Made by a program: the position numbers and the translations under genes | In this document: positions 1 through 8,953 of the stretch, piece by piece | Numbering within the stretch: the stretch's first letter is position 1 | Layout of the letters: the number at the start of each line of letters is the position of its first letter | The notes under the pieces: generated by a model | What the model saw: only the letters and a program-made list of their open reading frames with translations | Databases searched by the model: none | Told to the model about the DNA's origin: nothing | Source: Actinomycetes bacterium | GTDB lineage: Bacteria; Actinomycetota; Acidimicrobiia; Acidimicrobiales; Poriferisodalaceae | Direction: 5' to 3' | Assembly: GCA_024228575.1 (NCBI GenBank) | Contig: JAAETH010000292.1 | Span: forward strand, 1-36,436 | DNA length: 36,436 bases

Positions 1-39
1 ACACTCGTACGGTTCGAGTGGGAGACGCTCTCGCAGTAG
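1..39 (+). CDS. possible 3' end of a gene cut by the window edge
   Basis: Reading from base 1, twelve codons (TLVRFEWETLSQ) run to a TAG at 37-39. Most third positions are G or C, as in the real genes of the window, so this could be the tail of an upstream plus-strand gene. The other two plus frames are also open here, to 59 and to 127. The frame ending at 127 would run through the 32-bp repeat and stop inside the hairpin at 123-153. The correct frame cannot be settled from this fragment. Confidence 0.25.
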   Translation, partial: TLVRFEWETLSQ

Positions 40-87
40 ACTGGTTAACCCGACATTGAATCGCGCACTAGGATCTCACGTACGCGG

Positions 88-119
88 GGAGTTCGAAAGA
101 CATCGCATGACTTCCGCCA
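88..119 (+). repeat. left copy of 32-bp direct repeat flanking the protease/META pair
   Basis: These 32 bases recur at 2765-2796 with one difference (G at 105, T at 2782). Identity stops immediately outside both ends. Each copy is followed by a hairpin: 4 bases downstream here and 15 bases downstream at the right copy. An 11-base piece, AGTTCGAAAGA (90-100), is also present inverted at 196-206. What the repeat does is unknown; it could be a recombination site, a duplicated gene end or a regulatory element. Confidence 0.85.
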
Positions 120-122
120 CGC

Positions 123-153
123 ACTGACCAGGGGCCTTCCACCCCTGGTCAGT
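123..153 (+). terminator. 12-bp perfect hairpin, terminator-like
   Basis: ACTGACCAGGGG (123-134) pairs perfectly with CCCCTGGTCAGT (142-153) around a 7-base loop. A short T-rich stretch (GTTTTG) follows within about 7 bases. It would end transcription of the gene entering from the left and insulate the protease promoter. It lies just after the left 32-bp repeat. Confidence 0.7.
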
Positions 154-252
154 TGACGTTTTGAGGGCGGTTGGTCGGCATGGGGCGTTTGTGGCTCTTT
201 CGAACTGTCCTGACCCGCAGGCCCTGCTCTCCTTGCTGATCAGCGGATAGCG

Positions 253-294
253 CTGGACGTCCAGGCTCTGGGGGGGGGTACCGTCCTTTATAGA
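253..294 (+). promoter_or_regulatory. protease upstream region: palindrome, G9 tract and -10-like box
   Basis: A perfect 12-bp palindrome, CTGGACGTCCAG (253-264), could be an operator or a small hairpin. Nine consecutive Gs follow (270-278), then a TATAGA-like -10 candidate at 289-294, 23 bases before the start codon. No convincing -35 box is visible at normal spacing. A homopolymeric G run between promoter elements could vary in length by slippage. A strong Shine-Dalgarno, GGAGGG (303-308), lies 8 bases before the ATG at 317. Confidence 0.4.
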
Positions 295-316
295 GCGTCT
301 ACGGAGGGAGTCGGTC

Positions 317-2152
317 ATGAGGTGGCTGCGTTCTGGTGCGGTGATGGTGGCTTGTATGGTCGGCGCGGCGGTGTTGGCCGTGCCGTCGACAGCTGCTGAG
401 GTTGCGACTGGCGAAGGGCGGCAGGAGGAGGTCCCAGAGGACATCTTCATGTCTGAAGATGAGGTGAACGAAGAACTCGTCGCCGACATCGATTGGAGCG
501 CTTGGTCGGACCGGCGCGCCGAGCATGGCCTTTCTCCGTTGCGAGCCGACGATCTGAGCTTGAAGGAGAAGGTTGAGATCCTTGCTCGTGAGGCCAGGTT
601 TGACATGCCGTTGCTGGCCCAGGAGGTCGGCGACTACGAGCGGTGGCAGGTGCAGCGGGAGCGGCTGCTTGACGAGCACACGAGGTTGGCTGGTGATGAC
701 GCCTACCTGGTGGGTCGTATAGATGAACGCCGGCTTGTTCTTGACGTGTGGATGCGCGAGGGATGGTCGGGAGCGGTTGGTCAAGGAATCTCCGTGCATC
801 GAACGGCGTTCAGTCGCGGTGATGTGGTGCCGCTCGTGGAGGCGATTCAGAAGCTCCCAGCTGAAGCGTTTGGTAGCAGTGTTGAGATTGACGCGATCCG
901 GGTTGGGGAGTATGGCGTCCGCGTAGAGTTGTCATCCCCCGAGGGAGTGGAGGTTCCCAGACAGGCCGTGAATCGAGGGTTGTCAGCCGTTGAAGCGGCA
1001 CGCCGATCACTCGGCGATCCGATGAATCATGTTCCGGTCGAGTTGAGCGCTGTCGAACATCGGCCTGTGGTTGATGCGTACTGCCTGAGCAGAAACCGGT
1101 GTCCGAATGTTCAGGGTGGGATGCGTGACTTCAGCAACGAATGTTCCTCGGGGTTCGTGCTTCGCAATGGCAACAATCGTGCGATCTCCACAGCGGGTCA
1201 CTGTGCGGGGTCGTTCACAAGATTCGGACTGATCGGACCGGACACCAACACGTCCGGCAACCAGGCCTTCGCTCCGAACTTCACGTCTGCGCGTGCGCCT
1301 CGCAACGATGGGTTCCATGATATTTGGGCCACGGAGAACGCTGACAGTGACTCGCTCGTTCCGACCCATTTTCGCGATCAAAACTACGGCAACAGGCCTG
1401 TCACAGCGTTTCGGGTGAGCCCGCCTCAGGGTCTCGAGGTGTGCGTGTCCGCACGGCTGCGCCTCGAACGGCGCTGCGGAATCATCACTGATGCCGCGTT
1501 CACCAACAACGACACCTTCGGGTGGCTGGAGATCGACTTCGCCCACAACGGAAACCAGGTCGGAGTCCAGGGCGGTGACTCGGGCGGCTCGGTGACCGAG
1601 CGAAACAACTCGTCAAGGGCCGTCGCGACCGTGGCAAACGCTGGAGGCCCGGCGCTTGCGACGTTTGGATTCCGATGGGGCTTCTTTCCTCGGGTTGACC
1701 CGATCCCGCTGCACTACGGCGGCTGGGCAATCCGAACCGGCAACCTCACCACAACGTTGTGGGAGAGCTTCATCGCCGGCCTATACCAGACAGCACTCCA
1801 ACGGCGAGCCAACGTCGGCGAGATCAACGGGTGGGTCAGCCAGTACTCGTCGGGCTCGTGCAGCTCCAACGCCAAGTTCCAGATCGAGTTCTTCATGAAG
1901 TCGAACGAGCTGCGCACCGGCGTGCCCCTGACAAGTCTGACCGCGGCGCAACGTCGAGTACGACGGCTGTACTGGTCAGCGTTCGGACGAGCCGCCGATC
2001 CAGGTGGGCTGACGTACTGGGCCAACCGGATCCACAACGCTTCCAACCGAGAAGCAGAATGGACGTGGGTGGTCGACTACTTCAAGAACTCATCAGAGAC
2101 CAACGTGCGAATCATCTCGCGCCGGAACCAAGAATGGGGCCCTTGTTCATGA
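317..2152 (+). CDS. secreted trypsin-like (S1) serine protease with C-terminal DUF4214 region
   Basis: A 611-aa exported protease. Residues 1-27 look like a signal peptide (basic start, hydrophobic core, cleavage near PSTAA). Residues about 30-250 are a charged pro-region. The chymotrypsin-fold domain covers about 255-475: catalytic His295 in STAGHC, probable Asp335 in HDIWATE and Ser422 in GGDSGGS. Six Cys (256, 262, 276, 296, 376, 387) suggest disulfides, with 276/296 in the usual His-loop position. Residues about 485-600 resemble DUF4214 ('LYQTALQR', 'YWSAFGRAADPGGLTYW'), a module seen in extracellular actinobacterial and cyanobacterial proteins. The start is fixed by the good Shine-Dalgarno at 303-308 and the signal peptide. 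The stop overlaps the next gene by 4 bp. Substrate is unknown; autocatalytic removal of the pro-region is inferred from family behaviour. Confidence 0.9.
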   Translation: MRWLRSGAVMVACMVGAAVLAVPSTAAEVATGEGRQEEVPEDIFMSEDEVNEELVADIDWSAWSDRRAEHGLSPLRADDLSLKEKVEILAREARFDMPLLAQEVGDYERWQVQRERLLDEHTRLAGDDAYLVGRIDERRLVLDVWMREGWSGAVGQGISVHRTAFSRGDVVPLVEAIQKLPAEAFGSSVEIDAIRVGEYGVRVELSSPEGVEVPRQAVNRGLSAVEAARRSLGDPMNHVPVELSAVEHRPVVDAYCLSRNRCPNVQGGMRDFSNECSSGFVLRNGNNRAISTAGHCAGSFTRFGLIGPDTNTSGNQAFAPNFTSARAPRNDGFHDIWATENADSDSLVPTHFRDQNYGNRPVTAFRVSPPQGLEVCVSARLRLERRCGIITDAAFTNNDTFGWLEIDFAHNGNQVGVQGGDSGGSVTERNNSSRAVATVANAGGPALATFGFRWGFFPRVDPIPLHYGGWAIRTGNLTTTLWESFIAGLYQTALQRRANVGEINGWVSQYSSGSCSSNAKFQIEFFMKSNELRTGVPLTSLTAAQRRVRRLYWSAFGRAADPGGLTYWANRIHNASNREAEWTWVVDYFKNSSETNVRIISRRNQEWGPCS

Positions 2153-2664
2153 ACCGAGGCCTGACGCTGGCAGCAGTCCTGTTGCTCGGGGGCTGTACCT
2201 CGGACTCACCGGAACCCGCCCCTGCCGCGTCGGTGTCATCATCAACTTCGACGACGGTCCCTGACGCGGCGTCGGCGTGGGGTCACAGATACGTACTCGA
2301 CGAGGCCACGATCAATGGCAATCCCTGGTCACCTGGCGGGGGAAGAGAACTCAGAGTCGAGATGCGAAGCGGCCTCTCAATGCGCTGGGGCGTCGGATGC
2401 AACGAGGCTCACAGTGTTCGCTCCAACGAAGATCCTTCGATCATCGACCAACGGTGGAGCCGCGAGCTGCAAGACTGTGGAAGTGTTGTGAACGGCGAGG
2501 AGGACGTCGTTAACACCTTCATGACCGAACGCCTCTCGGTAACTGCACTCGAGGACGGCAGTGTCCGGCTCGAATCCACCGAGACCGACTCAACCATGAA
2601 CCTCGATCGGTCCGACTGGGAAACGCTCCACCAAGAGGCAGCCCAACCAGAACCCACCACCTGA
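2149..2664 (+). CDS. META-domain lipoprotein coupled to the protease
   Basis: A 171-aa lipoprotein. The ATG at 2149 overlaps the protease stop as ATGA. The frame is open much further upstream (to 1759), but that part is Arg-rich shadow of the protease, and the signal peptide MNRGLTLAAVLLLGGC begins exactly at 2149. The lipobox ends at Cys16, so the mature protein should sit on the outer face of the membrane. After a Ser/Thr/Pro linker (17-42), residues about 45-155 match the META/HslJ pattern: GCN (83-85), a second Cys (110) and a conserved 'FMTERL' helix. The META family (HslJ, Leishmania Meta1) has no agreed biochemical function. Overlap with a secreted protease suggests a partner role such as inhibitor, anchor or folding aid; that is inference. 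Confidence 0.8.
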   Translation: MNRGLTLAAVLLLGGCTSDSPEPAPAASVSSSTSTTVPDAASAWGHRYVLDEATINGNPWSPGGGRELRVEMRSGLSMRWGVGCNEAHSVRSNEDPSIIDQRWSRELQDCGSVVNGEEDVVNTFMTERLSVTALEDGSVRLESTETDSTMNLDRSDWETLHQEAAQPEPTT

Positions 2665-2764
2665 CCTCAGCCCCACCATGCCGCCGGCCGATCTGTGCGG
2701 TCCAATCAAATGGTCACCCGTTTCGACGAGACCGCAGCTCGAAGGCAACCAAAGCTGGCCACCC

Positions 2765-2796
2765 GGAGTTCGAAAGACATCTCATGACTTCCGCCA
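2765..2796 (+). repeat. right copy of 32-bp direct repeat
   Basis: Matches 88-119 at 31 of 32 positions. It lies 100 bp after the META lipoprotein stop and is followed by the hairpin at 2811-2843. With the left copy it brackets a segment of about 2.7 kb holding exactly two complete genes. Confidence 0.85.
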
Positions 2797-2810
2797 ATAG
2801 ACCCAAGTCC

Positions 2811-2843
2811 GAACCCCGGCGCCCCTTGTAGGCGGCGGGGTTC
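2811..2843 (+). terminator. GC-rich hairpin downstream of the META lipoprotein
   Basis: GAACCCCGGCGCC (2811-2823) pairs with GGCGGCGGGGTTC (2831-2843), 12 of 13 pairs around a 7-base loop, then TTCC. It is the probable terminator of the protease/META transcript. The repeat-then-hairpin order is the same as at 88-153. Confidence 0.65.
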
Positions 2844-3073
2844 TTCCAATCCATGGGTAGTGGCCCTGTGGGCCACCCCAGTGGGCGTCAGTCAATGGCT
2901 CGGACCATGTCGGACCAGGTCCCTGCTGGTGAGCGCTTGACGACAACAGCAACTCGGGGATCATCCCAGGCTGATGTCTGGGCCTGACCTCGACTCGTCG
3001 TTGAGCTCGCGCGTGCGGTCGGGCTGCTGACGTTTCGCGCTGCGGCTCAGGAGGCGACCGCTTCTGAAGCCGC
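2844..3073. other. non-coding stretch with a possible broken reading frame
   Basis: The whole gap between genes is 2665-3073; after the right repeat and hairpin I see no intact gene. One plus-strand frame from an ATG at 2895 is protein-like (30 codons, 'SDQVPAGERLTTTATR') but is broken by TGA at 2985-2987. It resumes with 'VVELARAVGLLTFRAAAQ' and runs to TAG at 3096-3098, inside the tail of the convergent hydrolase. It could be a gene remnant or chance. No strong hairpin or promoter is visible here. Confidence 0.35.
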
Positions 3074-4210
3074 TCAGGTGCTCATGAGGGCTTGGTAGGA
3101 AGCCATCACGAGTGTTGCGCTTCGCAGATCGCCCAGAAGGTCGGCGGCCATCTTGTTCATCACGTAGCTGACGGTCATCTGATTGTCGAGGTCGGTGAGC
3201 GCAAGCGATCCGCCCCAGCCTCCCCAGAAGAAGGATCGCGGGCTCGGGAGAGGCAGCGACTCGCTCGAGAGCCCGAATCCCAACCCGAAGCGCATCGGCA
3301 CGCCGAGCACCAGGTCGGTGCCCTCGATCTGGGGGTCGAGGATCGACTCGACCGTCTCGGGTCTCATGAGCGTGACGCCGTCGAGGGTGCCGCCGCAGGC
3401 GAGGGCAGCGTGAACCCGGCCAACCGACCGTGCATTTCCGAAACCACCGGCGGCCGGAATCTCGGACGCACGCCACTCGCGGGTGCGCGGTTCGGTTCCG
3501 TCGAGCGCGGCGGATGCAAACGTGCGGAACGCGAGAGAATCTTCATCGACCTCGGCCATCTGGTTGGCAAGACCATCTGGTGGCGGGACCAATTCGCCAC
3601 ACCGGTGGTCGTGTTCTGGCCCGAAGCCGATGTGGAAATCGGCGCCGAGTGGTTCGGCGATCTCCTGGCGGAAGAAGGTGCCGAGTGAGCGGCCGTCCAC
3701 ACGACGCACGATCTCGCCCATAAGGTTCCCGTGGGTGACGGCGTGATAGCCGGACGCGGTGCCGGGCTGCCACCACGGTTCCTGGGCGGCAAGCTGCTGC
3801 GCTCGGGCATCCCAGTCGTAGAGGTCGGACGCGGCGAGGGGTCGATCGAAGCCCGACAATCCCGATGTGTGGCTCATCACCTGAGCGACCGTGATGTCTT
3901 CCTTGCCGGCGGCGGCGAACTCGGGCCAGTACCTCGCGACGGGAGCCCCTACGTCGACCAGGCCACGATCCACACACATCATCAGGGCGGTCGTTGTCAT
4001 GGTCTTGGTGGTGGAGTACACGTTGACGATGGTGTCCTCCACCCACGGATCACCAGCCGGGTTTGCGTCGCCCGCCCACAGGTCGACCACCGGCCTGCCA
4101 GCGACGGTGATGTACACCGACGCCCCAAGTTCCTCGTCGCGTTCGAAGTTGCCGACGAACGCATCCCGAACCGGTTCCCAACCACTGTCGCAATTGCCGC
4201 TGATGTCCAT
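3074..4210 (-). CDS. class-C beta-lactamase-fold serine hydrolase / esterase (EstB-like)
   Basis: 378 aa, the usual size for this family. The SxxK nucleophile motif is S66-TT-K69 in 'VYSTTKT'. A family-type Tyr (155) follows in 'SGYHAVTHG', and the third motif is the esterase-type 'WGGWGGS' (329-335) in place of KTG. 'SHTSGLSG' (113-120) is also typical. Members are carboxylesterases, beta-lactamase-like hydrolases or peptidases; the substrate cannot be told from sequence. There is no signal peptide, so it is probably cytoplasmic. It is preceded by the cupin terminator at 4281-4307 and is probably transcribed alone. Only a weak purine stretch (GGGGAT) precedes the ATG. Confidence 0.9.
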   Translation of the reverse strand: MDISGNCDSGWEPVRDAFVGNFERDEELGASVYITVAGRPVVDLWAGDANPAGDPWVEDTIVNVYSTTKTMTTTALMMCVDRGLVDVGAPVARYWPEFAAAGKEDITVAQVMSHTSGLSGFDRPLAASDLYDWDARAQQLAAQEPWWQPGTASGYHAVTHGNLMGEIVRRVDGRSLGTFFRQEIAEPLGADFHIGFGPEHDHRCGELVPPPDGLANQMAEVDEDSLAFRTFASAALDGTEPRTREWRASEIPAAGGFGNARSVGRVHAALACGGTLDGVTLMRPETVESILDPQIEGTDLVLGVPMRFGLGFGLSSESLPLPSPRSFFWGGWGGSLALTDLDNQMTVSYVMNKMAADLLGDLRSATLVMASYQALMST

Positions 4211-4280
4211 ACGATCCCCGATCTGCGATACCAGGCGCGACGCTAGACCCTTGCCGGTGCTCCGACTTCATCGTCTGGGG

Positions 4281-4307
4281 CTGGGTGCGTCCCTAGAACG
4301 CACCCGG
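4281..4307 (-). terminator. hairpin after the cupin gene
   Basis: GGGTGCGT (4283-4290) pairs perfectly with ACGCACCC (4298-4305); the stem extends outward by one wobble and one C-G pair. It begins 4 bases after the cupin stop on the minus strand and separates the LysE-GNAT-cupin group from the hydrolase. There is no long T tract. Confidence 0.55.
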
Positions 4308-4311
4308 TTGC

Positions 4312-4680
4312 TCAGATGGTCAGTCGTCTGGCTGCCGTCGCCTCGTCGCCCGTGTTGGGCGTGCCAGAGGGCTCGATCAGCAACAGCTCGGCTTCTTCAG
4401 CTGCGAACGGCTGGTGTTCGACACCGGTCGGTACGACGAAGAGTTCGCCCGGACCGAGGTGGACGTCGCCGTCGCGCATGCGGATCGTGATGTGGCCCTT
4501 CAGGACCAGGAAGAAGTCGTCGGTGTTGTCGTGATGGTGCCAGACGAACTCGCCCCGGACCTTGACGACCATCACGTCGTGTCCGTTGAACTCTGCGACC
4601 GTCCTCGGTGACCAGTGCTCGTCGAACCGGTTGAGTTTCTCTTGCAGATTGACGGCTTTGTCGGATCGAGATGTGGCCAT
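4312..4680 (-). CDS. small cupin-domain protein
   Basis: 122 aa, a single cupin_2 barrel. Motif 1 contains three consecutive His (48-50) followed by 'DNTDDFFLVLKG', and motif 2 is 'PTGVEHQP' with His89. These are the usual metal ligands. 'HHHDNTDDFF' is typical of small mannose-6-phosphate-isomerase-like cupins of unknown substrate. It lies 12 bp after the GNAT gene in the same direction and is probably the last gene of a LysE-GNAT-cupin operon ended by the hairpin at 4281-4307. Specific enzymatic activity cannot be inferred. Confidence 0.85.
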   Translation of the reverse strand: MATSRSDKAVNLQEKLNRFDEHWSPRTVAEFNGHDVMVVKVRGEFVWHHHDNTDDFFLVLKGHITIRMRDGDVHLGPGELFVVPTGVEHQPFAAEEAELLLIEPSGTPNTGDEATAARRLTI

Positions 4681-4692
4681 GCGCCGAGTCTG

Positions 4693-5172
4693 TCACCCGT
4701 CGGGCAACCCGGTCGCTCGTTCGAACCAGGTGTCGTTGCCGTACTCGCTGTCGGCCTCGTGGGTGATCTCGAATCCGCAGGCGAGGTAGAAGTTGATGAC
4801 CTCGGTCCAGCCGCTGGTGGTCTCGAGCACAACACGGCTCTTGCCCCACGATCTCGCCGTGGCCATCAGTTCTTCGACTATCCGACGTCCGACACCCGAG
4901 CGCTGTAGGTCGCGTGCCACCGACATGCGAACGATCATGGCCGCATCGGTCGACCCCTTTTCGTCCGTCCACGGAAACAACGTTCCCGTACCAACGACCG
5001 AACCTTGTTCGGAACGAACCACGACCGTTCGTCCAAGGGCGTAGATCGACAACATGTCGTCGAGGTCGGGATTCAGCGACTCGTCGATGGAGCCCCAGTG
5101 GTCGCCGAGCCCGGTGAGGATCAGCCGCCGTACTTCATGCTGGTTGGCCGCATCGAGATCCTCGAAGTACAT
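4693..5172 (-). CDS. GNAT family N-acetyltransferase
   Basis: 159 aa, a single GNAT domain. The acetyl-CoA loop is 'RDLQRSGVGRR' (87-97, Q/RxxGxG/A), followed by 'VLETTSGWTEVINFYLACGF' (115-134), the usual motif-B strand and helix. The frame stays open far upstream, but that is shadow of the LysE gene; the start chosen is the ATG at 5172-5170, which overlaps the LysE stop as TGATG. Coupling to an amino-acid-exporter-type gene suggests acetylation of a small amine or amino acid, which is inference. Confidence 0.85.
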   Translation of the reverse strand: MYFEDLDAANQHEVRRLILTGLGDHWGSIDESLNPDLDDMLSIYALGRTVVVRSEQGSVVGTGTLFPWTDEKGSTDAAMIVRMSVARDLQRSGVGRRIVEELMATARSWGKSRVVLETTSGWTEVINFYLACGFEITHEADSEYGNDTWFERATGLPDG

Positions 5173-5810
5173 CAACTCGACGATACCCGGCCTCCGAAAG
5201 CGGTGATCAGTCCCAGGCTGATGTACGAGACACCCGCCACGAGGTCCCTGCGTCGCGCCAGTTCGGGTGAGTTGCCGAATCGTTCGCTGACCCATCCCGC
5301 CGCCAGTGCGTACCCCCCGTCGCTGAGGAGGCCCAGAACGATGAACACAATCCCCAGCACCAGGAGCTGGGAGGTCGTATGCCCCGCGGACACATCTACG
5401 AACTGGGGTACGAACGCAAGGAAGAACACCGCCGTCTTGGGGTTCAGCACGTTCAACACCACCGCATCGGTGAAGACCCGTCTGGTGCTCCAAGACTCGT
5501 CGACGCTGACCTCTGTGTCGACCGGCTTGGGTAACAGCGCCCTGATGCCGAGGTAGATCAGGTAGCTGGCACCGGCCAGCTTGACCGTCGAGAACGCGGT
5601 CGCCGAGGCGACGACGATTGCCGACAGGCCCGCGGCTGCGGCCGCTATGTGGACCAATGTGCCGACGTGGACTCCGGCCACGGATACGAGGGCGGCACGC
5701 CTGCCCTGGGTGGCGCCCCGAGCGACGATGTAGAGAACTGCGGGGCCGGGGATTATCAGCAGCAACAGGGCGGCTCCCGAGAACAGGATGAGAGTCGATG
5801 CTGCGGGCAT
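5172..5810 (-). CDS. LysE/RhtB family amino-acid exporter
   Basis: 212 aa, the standard size for LysE/RhtB translocators, with about six hydrophobic segments. The N-terminal signature is 'LLLLIIPGPAVLYIVARG' with the conserved PGP, followed by a 'ATQGRRAALVSVAGVHVG' loop and 'NPKTAVFFLAFVPQFV'. Members export amino acids or related metabolites by proton motive force. It is translationally coupled to the downstream GNAT (one-base overlap) and 59 bp from the upstream metallopeptidase, so it probably heads the LysE-GNAT-cupin operon. Substrate unknown. Confidence 0.9.
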   Translation of the reverse strand: MPAASTLILFSGAALLLLIIPGPAVLYIVARGATQGRRAALVSVAGVHVGTLVHIAAAAAGLSAIVVASATAFSTVKLAGASYLIYLGIRALLPKPVDTEVSVDESWSTRRVFTDAVVLNVLNPKTAVFFLAFVPQFVDVSAGHTTSQLLVLGIVFIVLGLLSDGGYALAAGWVSERFGNSPELARRRDLVAGVSYISLGLITAFGGRVSSS

Positions 5811-5869
5811 CGACGAACCCTAGCCGTGGTGCTCGTGGCCGATGCCGGCAATAGTCGGCCCTTGTCGAA

Positions 5870-7933
5870 CTACACCGGAACGGGCGTGCACCGCGGGAGC
5901 TCAGCGTCGAGTTTCTCTCGCCACGTTTCGAAGCGTTTGCGCCGTCTGCGGCGCCTGACCCGCCAGATGACGAGGATGACGAGCAGCAACAGGACAACAC
6001 CTGCGATGGCGCCACCGAGCTTCGCCCTGAACAACCCCACGTCCTCGGCATCGTCGAGGAGTGCTCGAAGCTGTGCTGCCTCGACATCGACAAGATCGGG
6101 GTCGCCGGCGTCGTAGGCCGATCGGACCTCGAGCAACTCGGCATCGGGGTCTTGTCCCCACAAGCCGAGCTGTTCGAGAAGCGAAGGCTCGACCTTGGAG
6201 CGTTCGGTGATCGACTCGACGACGGCGATCGCTTCGAGCCAGCGTGTGATCCTCGCTTCCGAGGACGAATAGCTGTCGAAGGTGCGTTCGAAAATGCCTT
6301 CGCCGACCGCCGGGTCGTTCAGCGTGGCTGCTTCGGAGCGTGTTGTCAGCTCGTCTCGCAAGGCCAACACCGCCAGCCCTTCGTCGACCAGGCGCTCGAT
6401 GTCCTCGAAATCCCACCGTTCGGCACGTTCGCGGATACCTAGTGGAACGAACCACTCGCCGCCTGCCTCGGTCAGGCGAGCGATGTCGTCGAGGGCTTCC
6501 CTTCGTCCGGCGAGCAGGTCGACCTCGCTCCCGAGCAGGACGTACTCGCTCAACACATCCTCGAACCCAGTGGAGCCAGCGAGGTGCTCGGAGACGTCGA
6601 GCAAACGTTTCCAGTCGACCGGCCTGTCGGTGCTGCCGTCGCCCTCTTCGTCGGGATATGTGGCGGTGCCGTCGAAGAGGGCCACCACGATGTTGTCCAT
6701 CAGGTCGGGGCCGACCTCGTCGGACAGCTGGTACATGACCCAAGAGGATGTGCTGTAGCCCCAGTTCTCGGTCTCGTCGCTGGACATCATGTTGGACCAT
6801 GTGTTCAGCTGGCGGGAGAACGAGGCGGGTTCGGGTTCTTCGGGTTTGGGCGCCTCTGCTCCGAGTTCGAGAGCCGCCAGGCGTGCAAACTCCTCGGCCA
6901 TCGCCTCGGTGATCCAGCGGTCATCGGACAAGCCGTCGTTGAACCATGCGTGGCCGAGCTCGTGCAGGAAGATGGCGGTGTCGAGGTCCTCATCGATGAC
7001 GATGCGGCCCTCGTCGCCGTCGTACCAACCGGCGTACCCGTGGAAGTTCGGTTCCGACGATTGGATGATCTCGAAGTCCTTGTCCTCGGGCCAGGGTTTG
7101 CCTATCAGGCGCTCGAGGGTCGGGATGCCTTCTCTGGCCGTCTCGACGGCGAACTCTTCCCACTCGTCGTCGCCTGGCCAGGACCGAATCGTGACCATCG
7201 ACCCGGCGACCAGTATCGACCGTGGATCCAGTGCACCATCGTTGCGGGCGATGACGGTTACGAAGAAGTCGTCGGGATCGTCGATGTCTGTGGCCGAATA
7301 GACACTCCCGCCCGACTCGGTGTTCTCACTACGCATGTGGCTACCGGTCGTCTCGATCTCGAAGCCGGGAGGCAGCTCTATCGTGACGTCTAGTTGGCCC
7401 GGATCGGCTATTCCCCATGCACCGAAGAAGGCGTAGGCCGGGTTGATCCGGTCGATGAATTCGCTCCGTGGTTGTGAGCCTTCGATCCGGTAGCTGGCCA
7501 CGACGGTGGTTGTGCGGCCGTAGTTGAGATTGCGGCGGAAGGTGACCGCGGCGTAGGCGAATTCGCCTCCCTCGATCTCCTCGCCGTCGATCACTTCGGT
7601 TTCGTACTCCTCGGTGACCAGTTCGTAGGTGAGGTCTGAACTCCCGTCGGTCACCAACAGGTCGACAGCGTTGTCGGGAACCGGTACCGCGAACCCGTCG
7701 AAGTAGTACGAGTAGATCGTGTAGCCCGATCGACGGTTCGCCTTGACATTCTTCAATGTGAATGTCGCCTCGACGGTCAACTGACCCTGTGGGTCGAGCC
7801 TGTATGCGTAGGCAGCATCGACGCTCAAGCCATCGGAGGCCTCAGCGCTACGGCTTCCGACTCCGGTCGCCACCGCCACGGCCACCAGGAGCACGGCGCC
7901 GATCGTGAGGCGCGCAACCATCGAACTCAACAT
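5870..7933 (-). CDS. membrane-anchored gluzincin-like metallopeptidase (M1-related)
   Basis: About 687 aa from the ATG at 7933; ATGs at 7960, 7957 and 7921 are alternatives and none has a clear Shine-Dalgarno. Frame continuing above 7960 is shadow of the divergent GGDEF gene. A signal peptide or N-terminal anchor lies at about 5-25. A beta-rich region (35-250) precedes the zinc site HELGH (324-328). The third ligand is probably Glu343 in 'WITEAMAEE', 14 residues after the second His, shorter than the 18 of classical M1 enzymes; Glu347 would give exactly 18. A C-terminal helix (about 641-657) and 'RVRRRRRRKRF' anchor it, with the catalytic domain outside. The role could be surface peptide processing. 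Confidence 0.85.
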   Translation of the reverse strand: MLSSMVARLTIGAVLLVAVAVATGVGSRSAEASDGLSVDAAYAYRLDPQGQLTVEATFTLKNVKANRRSGYTIYSYYFDGFAVPVPDNAVDLLVTDGSSDLTYELVTEEYETEVIDGEEIEGGEFAYAAVTFRRNLNYGRTTTVVASYRIEGSQPRSEFIDRINPAYAFFGAWGIADPGQLDVTIELPPGFEIETTGSHMRSENTESGGSVYSATDIDDPDDFFVTVIARNDGALDPRSILVAGSMVTIRSWPGDDEWEEFAVETAREGIPTLERLIGKPWPEDKDFEIIQSSEPNFHGYAGWYDGDEGRIVIDEDLDTAIFLHELGHAWFNDGLSDDRWITEAMAEEFARLAALELGAEAPKPEEPEPASFSRQLNTWSNMMSSDETENWGYSTSSWVMYQLSDEVGPDLMDNIVVALFDGTATYPDEEGDGSTDRPVDWKRLLDVSEHLAGSTGFEDVLSEYVLLGSEVDLLAGRREALDDIARLTEAGGEWFVPLGIRERAERWDFEDIERLVDEGLAVLALRDELTTRSEAATLNDPAVGEGIFERTFDSYSSSEARITRWLEAIAVVESITERSKVEPSLLEQLGLWGQDPDAELLEVRSAYDAGDPDLVDVEAAQLRALLDDAEDVGLFRAKLGGAIAGVVLLLLVILVIWRVRRRRRRKRFETWREKLDAELPRCTPVPV

Positions 7934-8050
7934 CAGGTGACTTCGTCCCACCGGCATCATTGCTGAATACTTTGACAGAAGTGGTGGATCGAGTCGTGGA
8001 CTCGACCAAGCCCTGGCCTTGCTTGGGTTCATAGCGACCTCCGGCAGCCG

Positions 8051-8953
8051 ATGGGAACGGTGATGTTGTCCCACCGACCGCGCGATGCGAAGGCGCAGAC
8101 CTTTTCGGAGGCCTGCAGCCGGTTGGTGCGTCAGCTTCGGATCGCCGTGAATGTCCAGACGGTGGCTTCGGTCGTCGTGGAGGGTTCGGACGCTCGCATC
8201 GAGTTCGTCGATGACTATGGCTTCAGGCTGCAGCAGGGCGACGTCTTGCTCGATTCCGAGCGGTGGACGGTTTCCGATGTCAGGAACAGTCCATCGCGTG
8301 CCCTCACCGAGGCGGGGCGCGGTTTCTCGGTTGGATGTGTGGTGGTGGTGGCGCTGCCGGAGATGGATGGTGAACGACGCGCTCTCGTGATGCTCGATCC
8401 CGTACCGCGGCGCGATATCCCGAAACTCCAGGAGCTGGCGGTCGGCCATGCCGACATGCTCGCGACCGCTCTCGCTCTCGAATGCCGCCTCGACGAGGCC
8501 GAACACAGCTCGCTGACAGATGAGCTGACAGGCGTCGGGAACCGCAGGGCGTGGGGGGAGATGCTGGAGAGAGAGGAAGCACGTTGTGCACGGCACGACC
8601 TCGATGGCGCCGTTGCGATCATCGGCTTGCACGGTCTCGGGGCCACGAAGGACGCGACGCGACACTTTGTGGGGGACGAACAGCTACTGCGTGGTGCGAG
8701 GTCTCTTCTGGACTCGCTGCGTGTGTCGGACTTCGTGGCAAGGCTCGGCGGCGACAAGTTTGGTGTTGTCTTGACCCACACGAGCGGGATCTCGGCGAAA
8801 CAGGTCGTCGAGGTCCTCGACAAGCGACTTGAACACCGCGATGTGGATGCGGTGGTCGGGGCTGCCACCCGCAAGGGGTGTGGAACACTGCAGGCGGCCT
8901 GGGAAGCAGCCGATCGGGCGATGAGCGAAGCAAGTCCAAGCGGCGGGCGGTGA
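8051..8953 (+). CDS. degenerate GGDEF-domain protein with N-terminal GAF-like region
   Basis: 300 aa. Residues about 15-145 look like a sensory, GAF-type domain; about 152-290 is a GGDEF fold, recognised by 'LTDELTGVGNRRAW' (155-168) and the strand-loop 'RLGGDKF' (231-237). The catalytic motif is GGDKF, with Lys in place of the metal-binding Glu, and the upstream metal Asp of the 'D-x-D-x-F' strand is replaced ('IIGLHGLG'). It is therefore probably unable to make c-di-GMP and may bind nucleotide or act as a signalling scaffold. There are no membrane segments. It is divergent from the metallopeptidase with about 120 bp between. ATG at 8063 is an alternative start. Confidence 0.8.
   Translation: MGTVMLSHRPRDAKAQTFSEACSRLVRQLRIAVNVQTVASVVVEGSDARIEFVDDYGFRLQQGDVLLDSERWTVSDVRNSPSRALTEAGRGFSVGCVVVVALPEMDGERRALVMLDPVPRRDIPKLQELAVGHADMLATALALECRLDEAEHSSLTDELTGVGNRRAWGEMLEREEARCARHDLDGAVAIIGLHGLGATKDATRHFVGDEQLLRGARSLLDSLRVSDFVARLGGDKFGVVLTHTSGISAKQVVEVLDKRLEHRDVDAVVGAATRKGCGTLQAAWEAADRAMSEASPSGGR

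Follow-up and report, generated by a model that had tools for sequence, protein, structure and literature searches.

The window analysed here, a stretch of 36,436 bp that is the entire contig C292 of a genome assembled as 960 contigs (6.15 Mb; G000), carries near one end a gene for a secreted serine protease whose stop codon is overlapped by the start of a lipoprotein gene, the pair lying between two direct repeats (Table 1). The repeat copies match at 31 of 32 positions and their identity ends at both edges, as the preliminary description had stated, and its account of a single protease with a coupled lipoprotein between them proved accurate. The 25-base repeat core, with up to three mismatches allowed, occurs at these two places only in the window, where shuffled sequences lead one to expect none. 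The protease shows weak similarity to a lytic endopeptidase. The proposed META identity of the lipoprotein could not be confirmed: the META models of Pfam and NCBIfam gave no match, and its predicted structure is of low confidence (pLDDT 53).

L007 (Vin_3) and L008 (Bpl_13), contigs that belong to other MAGs, match the repeat core exactly. Both hold the whole of a second protease-lipoprotein pair (pair A), of which positions 1-119 of the window are the end. Thus, the first repeat copy closes pair A and the second closes the pair of the window (pair B), rather than the two bracketing one unit. Pairs A and B are adjacent paralogues, with proteases 77% and lipoproteins 59% identical. The differences are concentrated at the third codon position (by position 0.17, 0.14 and 0.54 in the protease), and the genes of both cassettes have therefore been kept under selection.

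The cassettes share a layout in which a conserved head of about 86 bp (a hairpin, then TCTTTCGAAC) is followed by one gene or operon and by a tail of about 30 bp, GTTCGAAAGACATCNCATGACTTCCGCCA. The head consensus comprises the hairpin CTGACCAGGGG/CCCCTGGTCAG, then TTGACGTTTT, a variable stretch and GGGGCGTTTGTGGCTCTTTCGAAC, and the head box (196-205) is the reverse complement of the tail box GTTCGAAAGA (91-100). This head is conserved in six sequences that differ in cargo or neighbours. The preliminary description had read the locus as a shared element of repeat followed by stem. Both hairpins do exist, but the first belongs to the head of cassette B and the second to the chromosomal flank; the repeat itself is a cassette tail, followed by a stem that belongs to the next head or, at the end of the array, is the chromosomal hairpin of a tRNA gene.

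Public genomes were searched in part, and all genomes used here are fragmented. Within G000, one more near-copy of the repeat was found on contig C202, and a search for hairpin plus box returned one further head, on contig C105. In 38 further genomes from the family, the repeat core was absent at up to three mismatches. When 397 genomes of the order were scanned, under stricter filters, with a covariance model of the head, strong matches came from G000 only; the remaining matches across the order reached at most 31 bits and resemble ordinary hairpins. Rfam returned no match. Viral contigs gave no match to the core, to the right box or to the protease, and plasmids gave none to the protease. 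On C202, a Fic-domain gene stands between the same kind of head and tail. That array ends in TTCCGCTA, not TTCCGCCA, and a matrixin-like secreted metalloprotease lies ahead of the Fic cassette.

Table 1. Features of the cassette array and of related loci. Coordinates refer to the window unless another contig is named.
Feature	Location	Strand	Basis or remark
Upstream cassette A, 3' part (last codons of lipoprotein gene, stop 37-39; spacer; tail 88-119)	1-119	+	identical to L007 2433-2551 and to L008
Cassette A tail, repeat copy 1; box GTTCGAAAGA at 91-100	88-119	+	
TCCGCCA, crossover segment at the A/B junction; equals the last 7 bases of tRNA-Ser(GCT)	113-119	+	reciprocal junction comparison
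Cassette B, complete unit, 2677 bp	120-2796	+	junctions with L007; chromosomal flank common to G004
Cassette B head: hairpin 124-152, then TTGACGTTTT, box TCTTTCGAAC at 196-205	120-205	+	conserved in six sequences; 99 bits, model R1
Secreted serine protease, 611 aa; TAGHC, GDSGGS; C-terminal DUF4214	317-2152	+	77% identical to cassette A protease
Lipoprotein, META-like by eye	2149-2664	+	start codon overlaps protease stop (ATGA)
Cassette B tail, repeat copy 2; TCCGCCA at 2790-2796	2765-2796	+	
Hairpin of the chromosome, probably the displaced native terminator of tRNA-Ser(GCT)	2811-2843	+	similar hairpin in G004
Right chromosomal flank: GNAT 4696-5175, LysE 5175-5810, peptidase-like gene about 5870-8665	4696-8665	-	colinear with G004
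ISL3 in cassette A	L053 (C105 of G000) 3-1097, minus; L007 1-246		
IS110 transposase in cassette B leader; early stop of A protease	L008 353-1567; about 4080	-	
Second array	L009 (C202 of G000) 1-5310		right flank differs: kinase, binding-protein gene
tRNA-Ser-like gene ('tRNA-???'), anticodon loop apparently 6-base, abnormal	L170 (C498 of G003) 129-221	-	head directly next

A serine tRNA gene as target

On C105, the head of cassette A lies flush behind an intact tRNA-Ser(GCT) gene that ends in CCTCTCCGCCA, and this junction identifies a tRNA gene as the insertion target. Over 725 bp, comprising the head and the start of the cargo, C105 matches L008 at 99.6% identity, and the match begins exactly at TCCGCCA; to its left stand the tRNA in C105 and another tail in L008, which are unrelated. 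Reciprocally, the window and L007 are identical through position 119, the end of the cassette A tail, and diverge at 120 into cassettes B and C. Both exchanges therefore place the crossover in TCCGCCA, and the far-end copy on C202, which reads CCGCTA, hints that it falls within the first five of these bases. The tRNA gene and the repeat have only this heptamer in common, plus an out-of-register GTTCGAA. The preliminary description had also allowed for a gene end duplicated at insertion; beyond TCCGCCA, the repeat does not copy the end of tRNA-Ser(GCT).

The contig of the window begins exactly 119 bp ahead of the point at which cassettes B and C diverge, which resembles a break in an assembly graph. 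The A/B and A/C junctions may both be present together in the sampled population. One ISL3 element disrupts cassette A at an identical site in G000 and in L007, with the 8-bp duplication CATTTTCC on both sides, and this shared insertion suggests that C105 and L007 come from close strains. L008 lacks ISL3 in cassette A, has an IS110 in the cassette B leader and shows an in-frame stop early in the A protease. The bins that contain L007 and L008 do not look closely related to G000; the two contigs may derive from close strains and have been misbinned. None of the contigs spans the tRNA together with the array and the right flank.

A genome of the same genus (G004) contains an empty site. Its contig starts inside the 3' end of tRNA-Ser(GCT), the hairpin GAACCCCGCC...GGCGGGGTTC stands three bases further on, and genes for a GNAT protein, a LysE protein and a large peptidase-like protein follow with no cassette among them. 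In the window, the second repeat copy is followed by the hairpin GAACCCCGGCGCC...GGCGGCGGGGTTC and later by the same three genes, in equal order and orientation (LysE 69%, peptidase-like gene 56% identical). Because the tRNA-Ser(GCT) gene of G004 has a similar hairpin and a colinear flank, the hairpin of the window is most likely the native terminator of this tRNA, which the array has moved away from its gene; neither hairpin was flagged in a simple scan for terminators. Two further relatives (G005 and G002) also have tRNA-Ser(GCT) without a cassette. Hence, relatives differ in whether a cassette is present, and the neighbours of cassette A are different ones in L007 and L008.

Positions 3074-4680 of the window, between the hairpin and the GNAT gene, hold a cupin gene and a gene for a serine hydrolase of beta-lactamase fold that are not there in G004. 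This hydrolase gene and a phosphorylase gene upstream of the tRNA on C105 were tried as synteny anchors and dropped, since neither adjoins tRNA-Ser in relatives; synteny came from the tRNA itself.

Proposed movement and its rivals

We consider it highly probable that positions 120-2796 are one mobile cassette, presumably moved in trans, and that it belongs to a tandem array abutting the 3' end of tRNA-Ser(GCT). Precise junctions, an empty site, alternative neighbours and common ends on unrelated cargo can be read directly from the sequences compared. Site-specific recombination best accounts for the precise seven-base joins, for unrelated cargoes in varying order and for the absence of the array from a relative. 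The preliminary description had foreseen a site-specifically inserted, exchangeable cassette, which the Fic cargo, the empty site and the precise junctions support; the check that it proposed, on the genome and its relatives, came out in its favour, with a copy of the repeat beside the Fic gene, an empty site in G004 and alternative neighbours on other contigs whose junctions lie exactly at the repeat end. It was also right that the cassette holds no recombinase, and there is none in any cassette seen.

From these observations we infer excision, a recombinase acting in trans, terminator function of the hairpins and present-day activity. An excised circle would join tail and head into a site of about 115 bp, in which the inverted boxes GTTCGAAAGA and TCTTTCGAAC flank TCCGCCA. 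A site-specific recombinase supplied in trans, most likely of the tyrosine type, would act on this tail-head site and join it, at TCCGCCA, either to the end of tRNA-Ser, which carries the same heptamer, or to the point where tail and head meet in a cassette already resident. Because the break would lie in the last bases of the tRNA, the gene would be left unharmed and an identity of about 7 bp would be sufficient. The hairpin of the incoming head could then take over as terminator of the tRNA, while the native one would come to lie beyond the last cassette of the array.

As the cassettes carry no recombinase, either the enzyme acts in trans or the array no longer moves, and the cassette copies may be relics. 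No cassette head occurs in 30 integrase neighbourhoods, 10 of them from G000, and an integrase-bearing element related to the cassettes was not found in these 30, G000 being fragmented. At positions 101269-104882 of its contig C466, G000 has four consecutive tyrosine recombinase matches that resemble a recombinase-in-trio element.

The adjacency of the paralogous pairs A and B is what would be expected had a protease-lipoprotein unit and its 3' flank been doubled by unequal crossing-over, with an immobile repeat. Such a tandem duplication is, however, already contradicted by L007 and L008, where cassette A stands beside other neighbours and the breaks fall exactly at TCCGCCA. The same ends also surround a Fic gene, a head is joined to the end of a tRNA, an empty site exists, and the repeat is 97% identical between copies amid unrelated surroundings, so that we regard duplication as extremely improbable. 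A DDE insertion sequence or MITE, with its target-site duplication at variable sites, does not fit the TCCGCCA junction, identical each time, at tRNA ends and at cassette tails alike. It is unlikely, but less so, that the array is a fixed relic of larger tRNA-targeted elements that accreted and lost their integrase (CIMEs), any shuffling being due to homologous recombination between repeats. This explanation has the same site-specific origin as a mobile cassette and departs from it on whether the cassettes still move. Cassettes without mobility genes, the ISL3 in cassette A (G000 and L007) and the IS110 in the B leader (L008) are consistent with a relic, as is the described origin of cis-mobilizable elements (PMC5704250). 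Yet intact heads and tails closely enclose small selected operons with no leftover genes, the differing small cargoes keep to a single layout, and 30 bp is short for homologous recombination.

The complete sites fold far better than shuffled sequences (z -3.3 to -6.3), which, together with small cargo, one site per cassette and tandem arrays, would fit an integron-like process in which tail and head fold as a single strand in the manner of an attC hairpin. We did not count the folding towards such a mechanism because covariation is absent in the four sites, and the terminator-like hairpin alone accounts for much of it. The RYYYAAC/GTTRRRY boxes are absent, their places being held by GTTCGAAAGA and TCTTTCGAAC, and the crossover lies inside one arm, not in an outer box. 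G000 has 27 tyrosine recombinase matches, and none of nine taken from the best of them scored above the integron integrase cut-off. We regard attC-like folding as a decidedly improbable basis for movement.

Relation to known systems

The closest systems in the literature are additive islands at tRNA genes and cis-mobilizable elements. Flexible genomic islands of the additive, tRNA-targeted type have been described in 'Ca. Actinomarinales' (PMC7771536), Alteromonas (PMC4119200) and Methylophilaceae (PMC10872708), and in small marine Actinobacteria these tRNA-targeted islands grow cassette by cassette (PMC7771536). Our array resembles them in its tRNA target, in cassettes that vary between strains, in growth by addition and in repeats at the ends. 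Their repeat duplicates a portion of the tRNA, such as the final 20 bases, whereas here about 7 bp are shared and the tail is the cassette's own; moreover, a conserved head is paired with this tail on unrelated cargo, in units of 1.6-3 kb. CIMEs accrete in tandem as att-flanked units without integrase or transfer genes (PMC5704250). The cassettes likewise have flanking att sites and lack such genes, but they carry unrelated operon-sized cargo in one standard layout and show no sign of ICE or IME decay.

Of the Dehalococcoides islands at ssrA, 15 lack an integration module and 16 have serine recombinase modules (PMC3146451). These too stand in tandem behind an RNA gene with direct repeats; they differ in that the target is tmRNA, the repeat is the tmRNA 3' end and the islands are larger. 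Integron cassettes and CALINs (PMC11389934) have in common with our array small cargo, one recombination site each and integrase-less arrays, but attC boxes are absent here, no integron integrase was found among the nine recombinases tested, and the entry site is a tRNA.

New features are units the size of integron cassettes, a head and tail common to unrelated cargo, and an identity with the tRNA that extends over only about 7 bp. Tentatively, and with more doubt than conviction, these units could constitute a distinct integron-like system in which cassettes of operon size, each with a standard recombination site (about 115 bp), insert flush at the CCA ends of serine tRNAs and are reshuffled within arrays by a single dedicated recombinase acting in trans, and which this lineage would employ for swapping secreted proteins. 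In additive tRNA islands, the moving unit and its enzyme are mostly guessed; here the unit, its ends, the seven-base crossover, the empty site and the alternative neighbours are legible at the level of bases, which gives a search for the recombinase a defined site to work from. Should a single enzyme move numerous cargo genes by way of one standard site next to a tRNA, this would be integron-like gene capture outside integrons.

In a genome of a sister genus (G003), a cassette head lies behind an odd tRNA-Ser-like gene, and the system is therefore not limited to one genome. That gene is possibly a decayed tRNA retained as an integration site. On C760 of G000 (L176) and on C831 of another genome, G039 (L181), a tRNA-Ser(GGA)-like gene is present as its 3' half alone, a typical footprint of another family of integrative elements.
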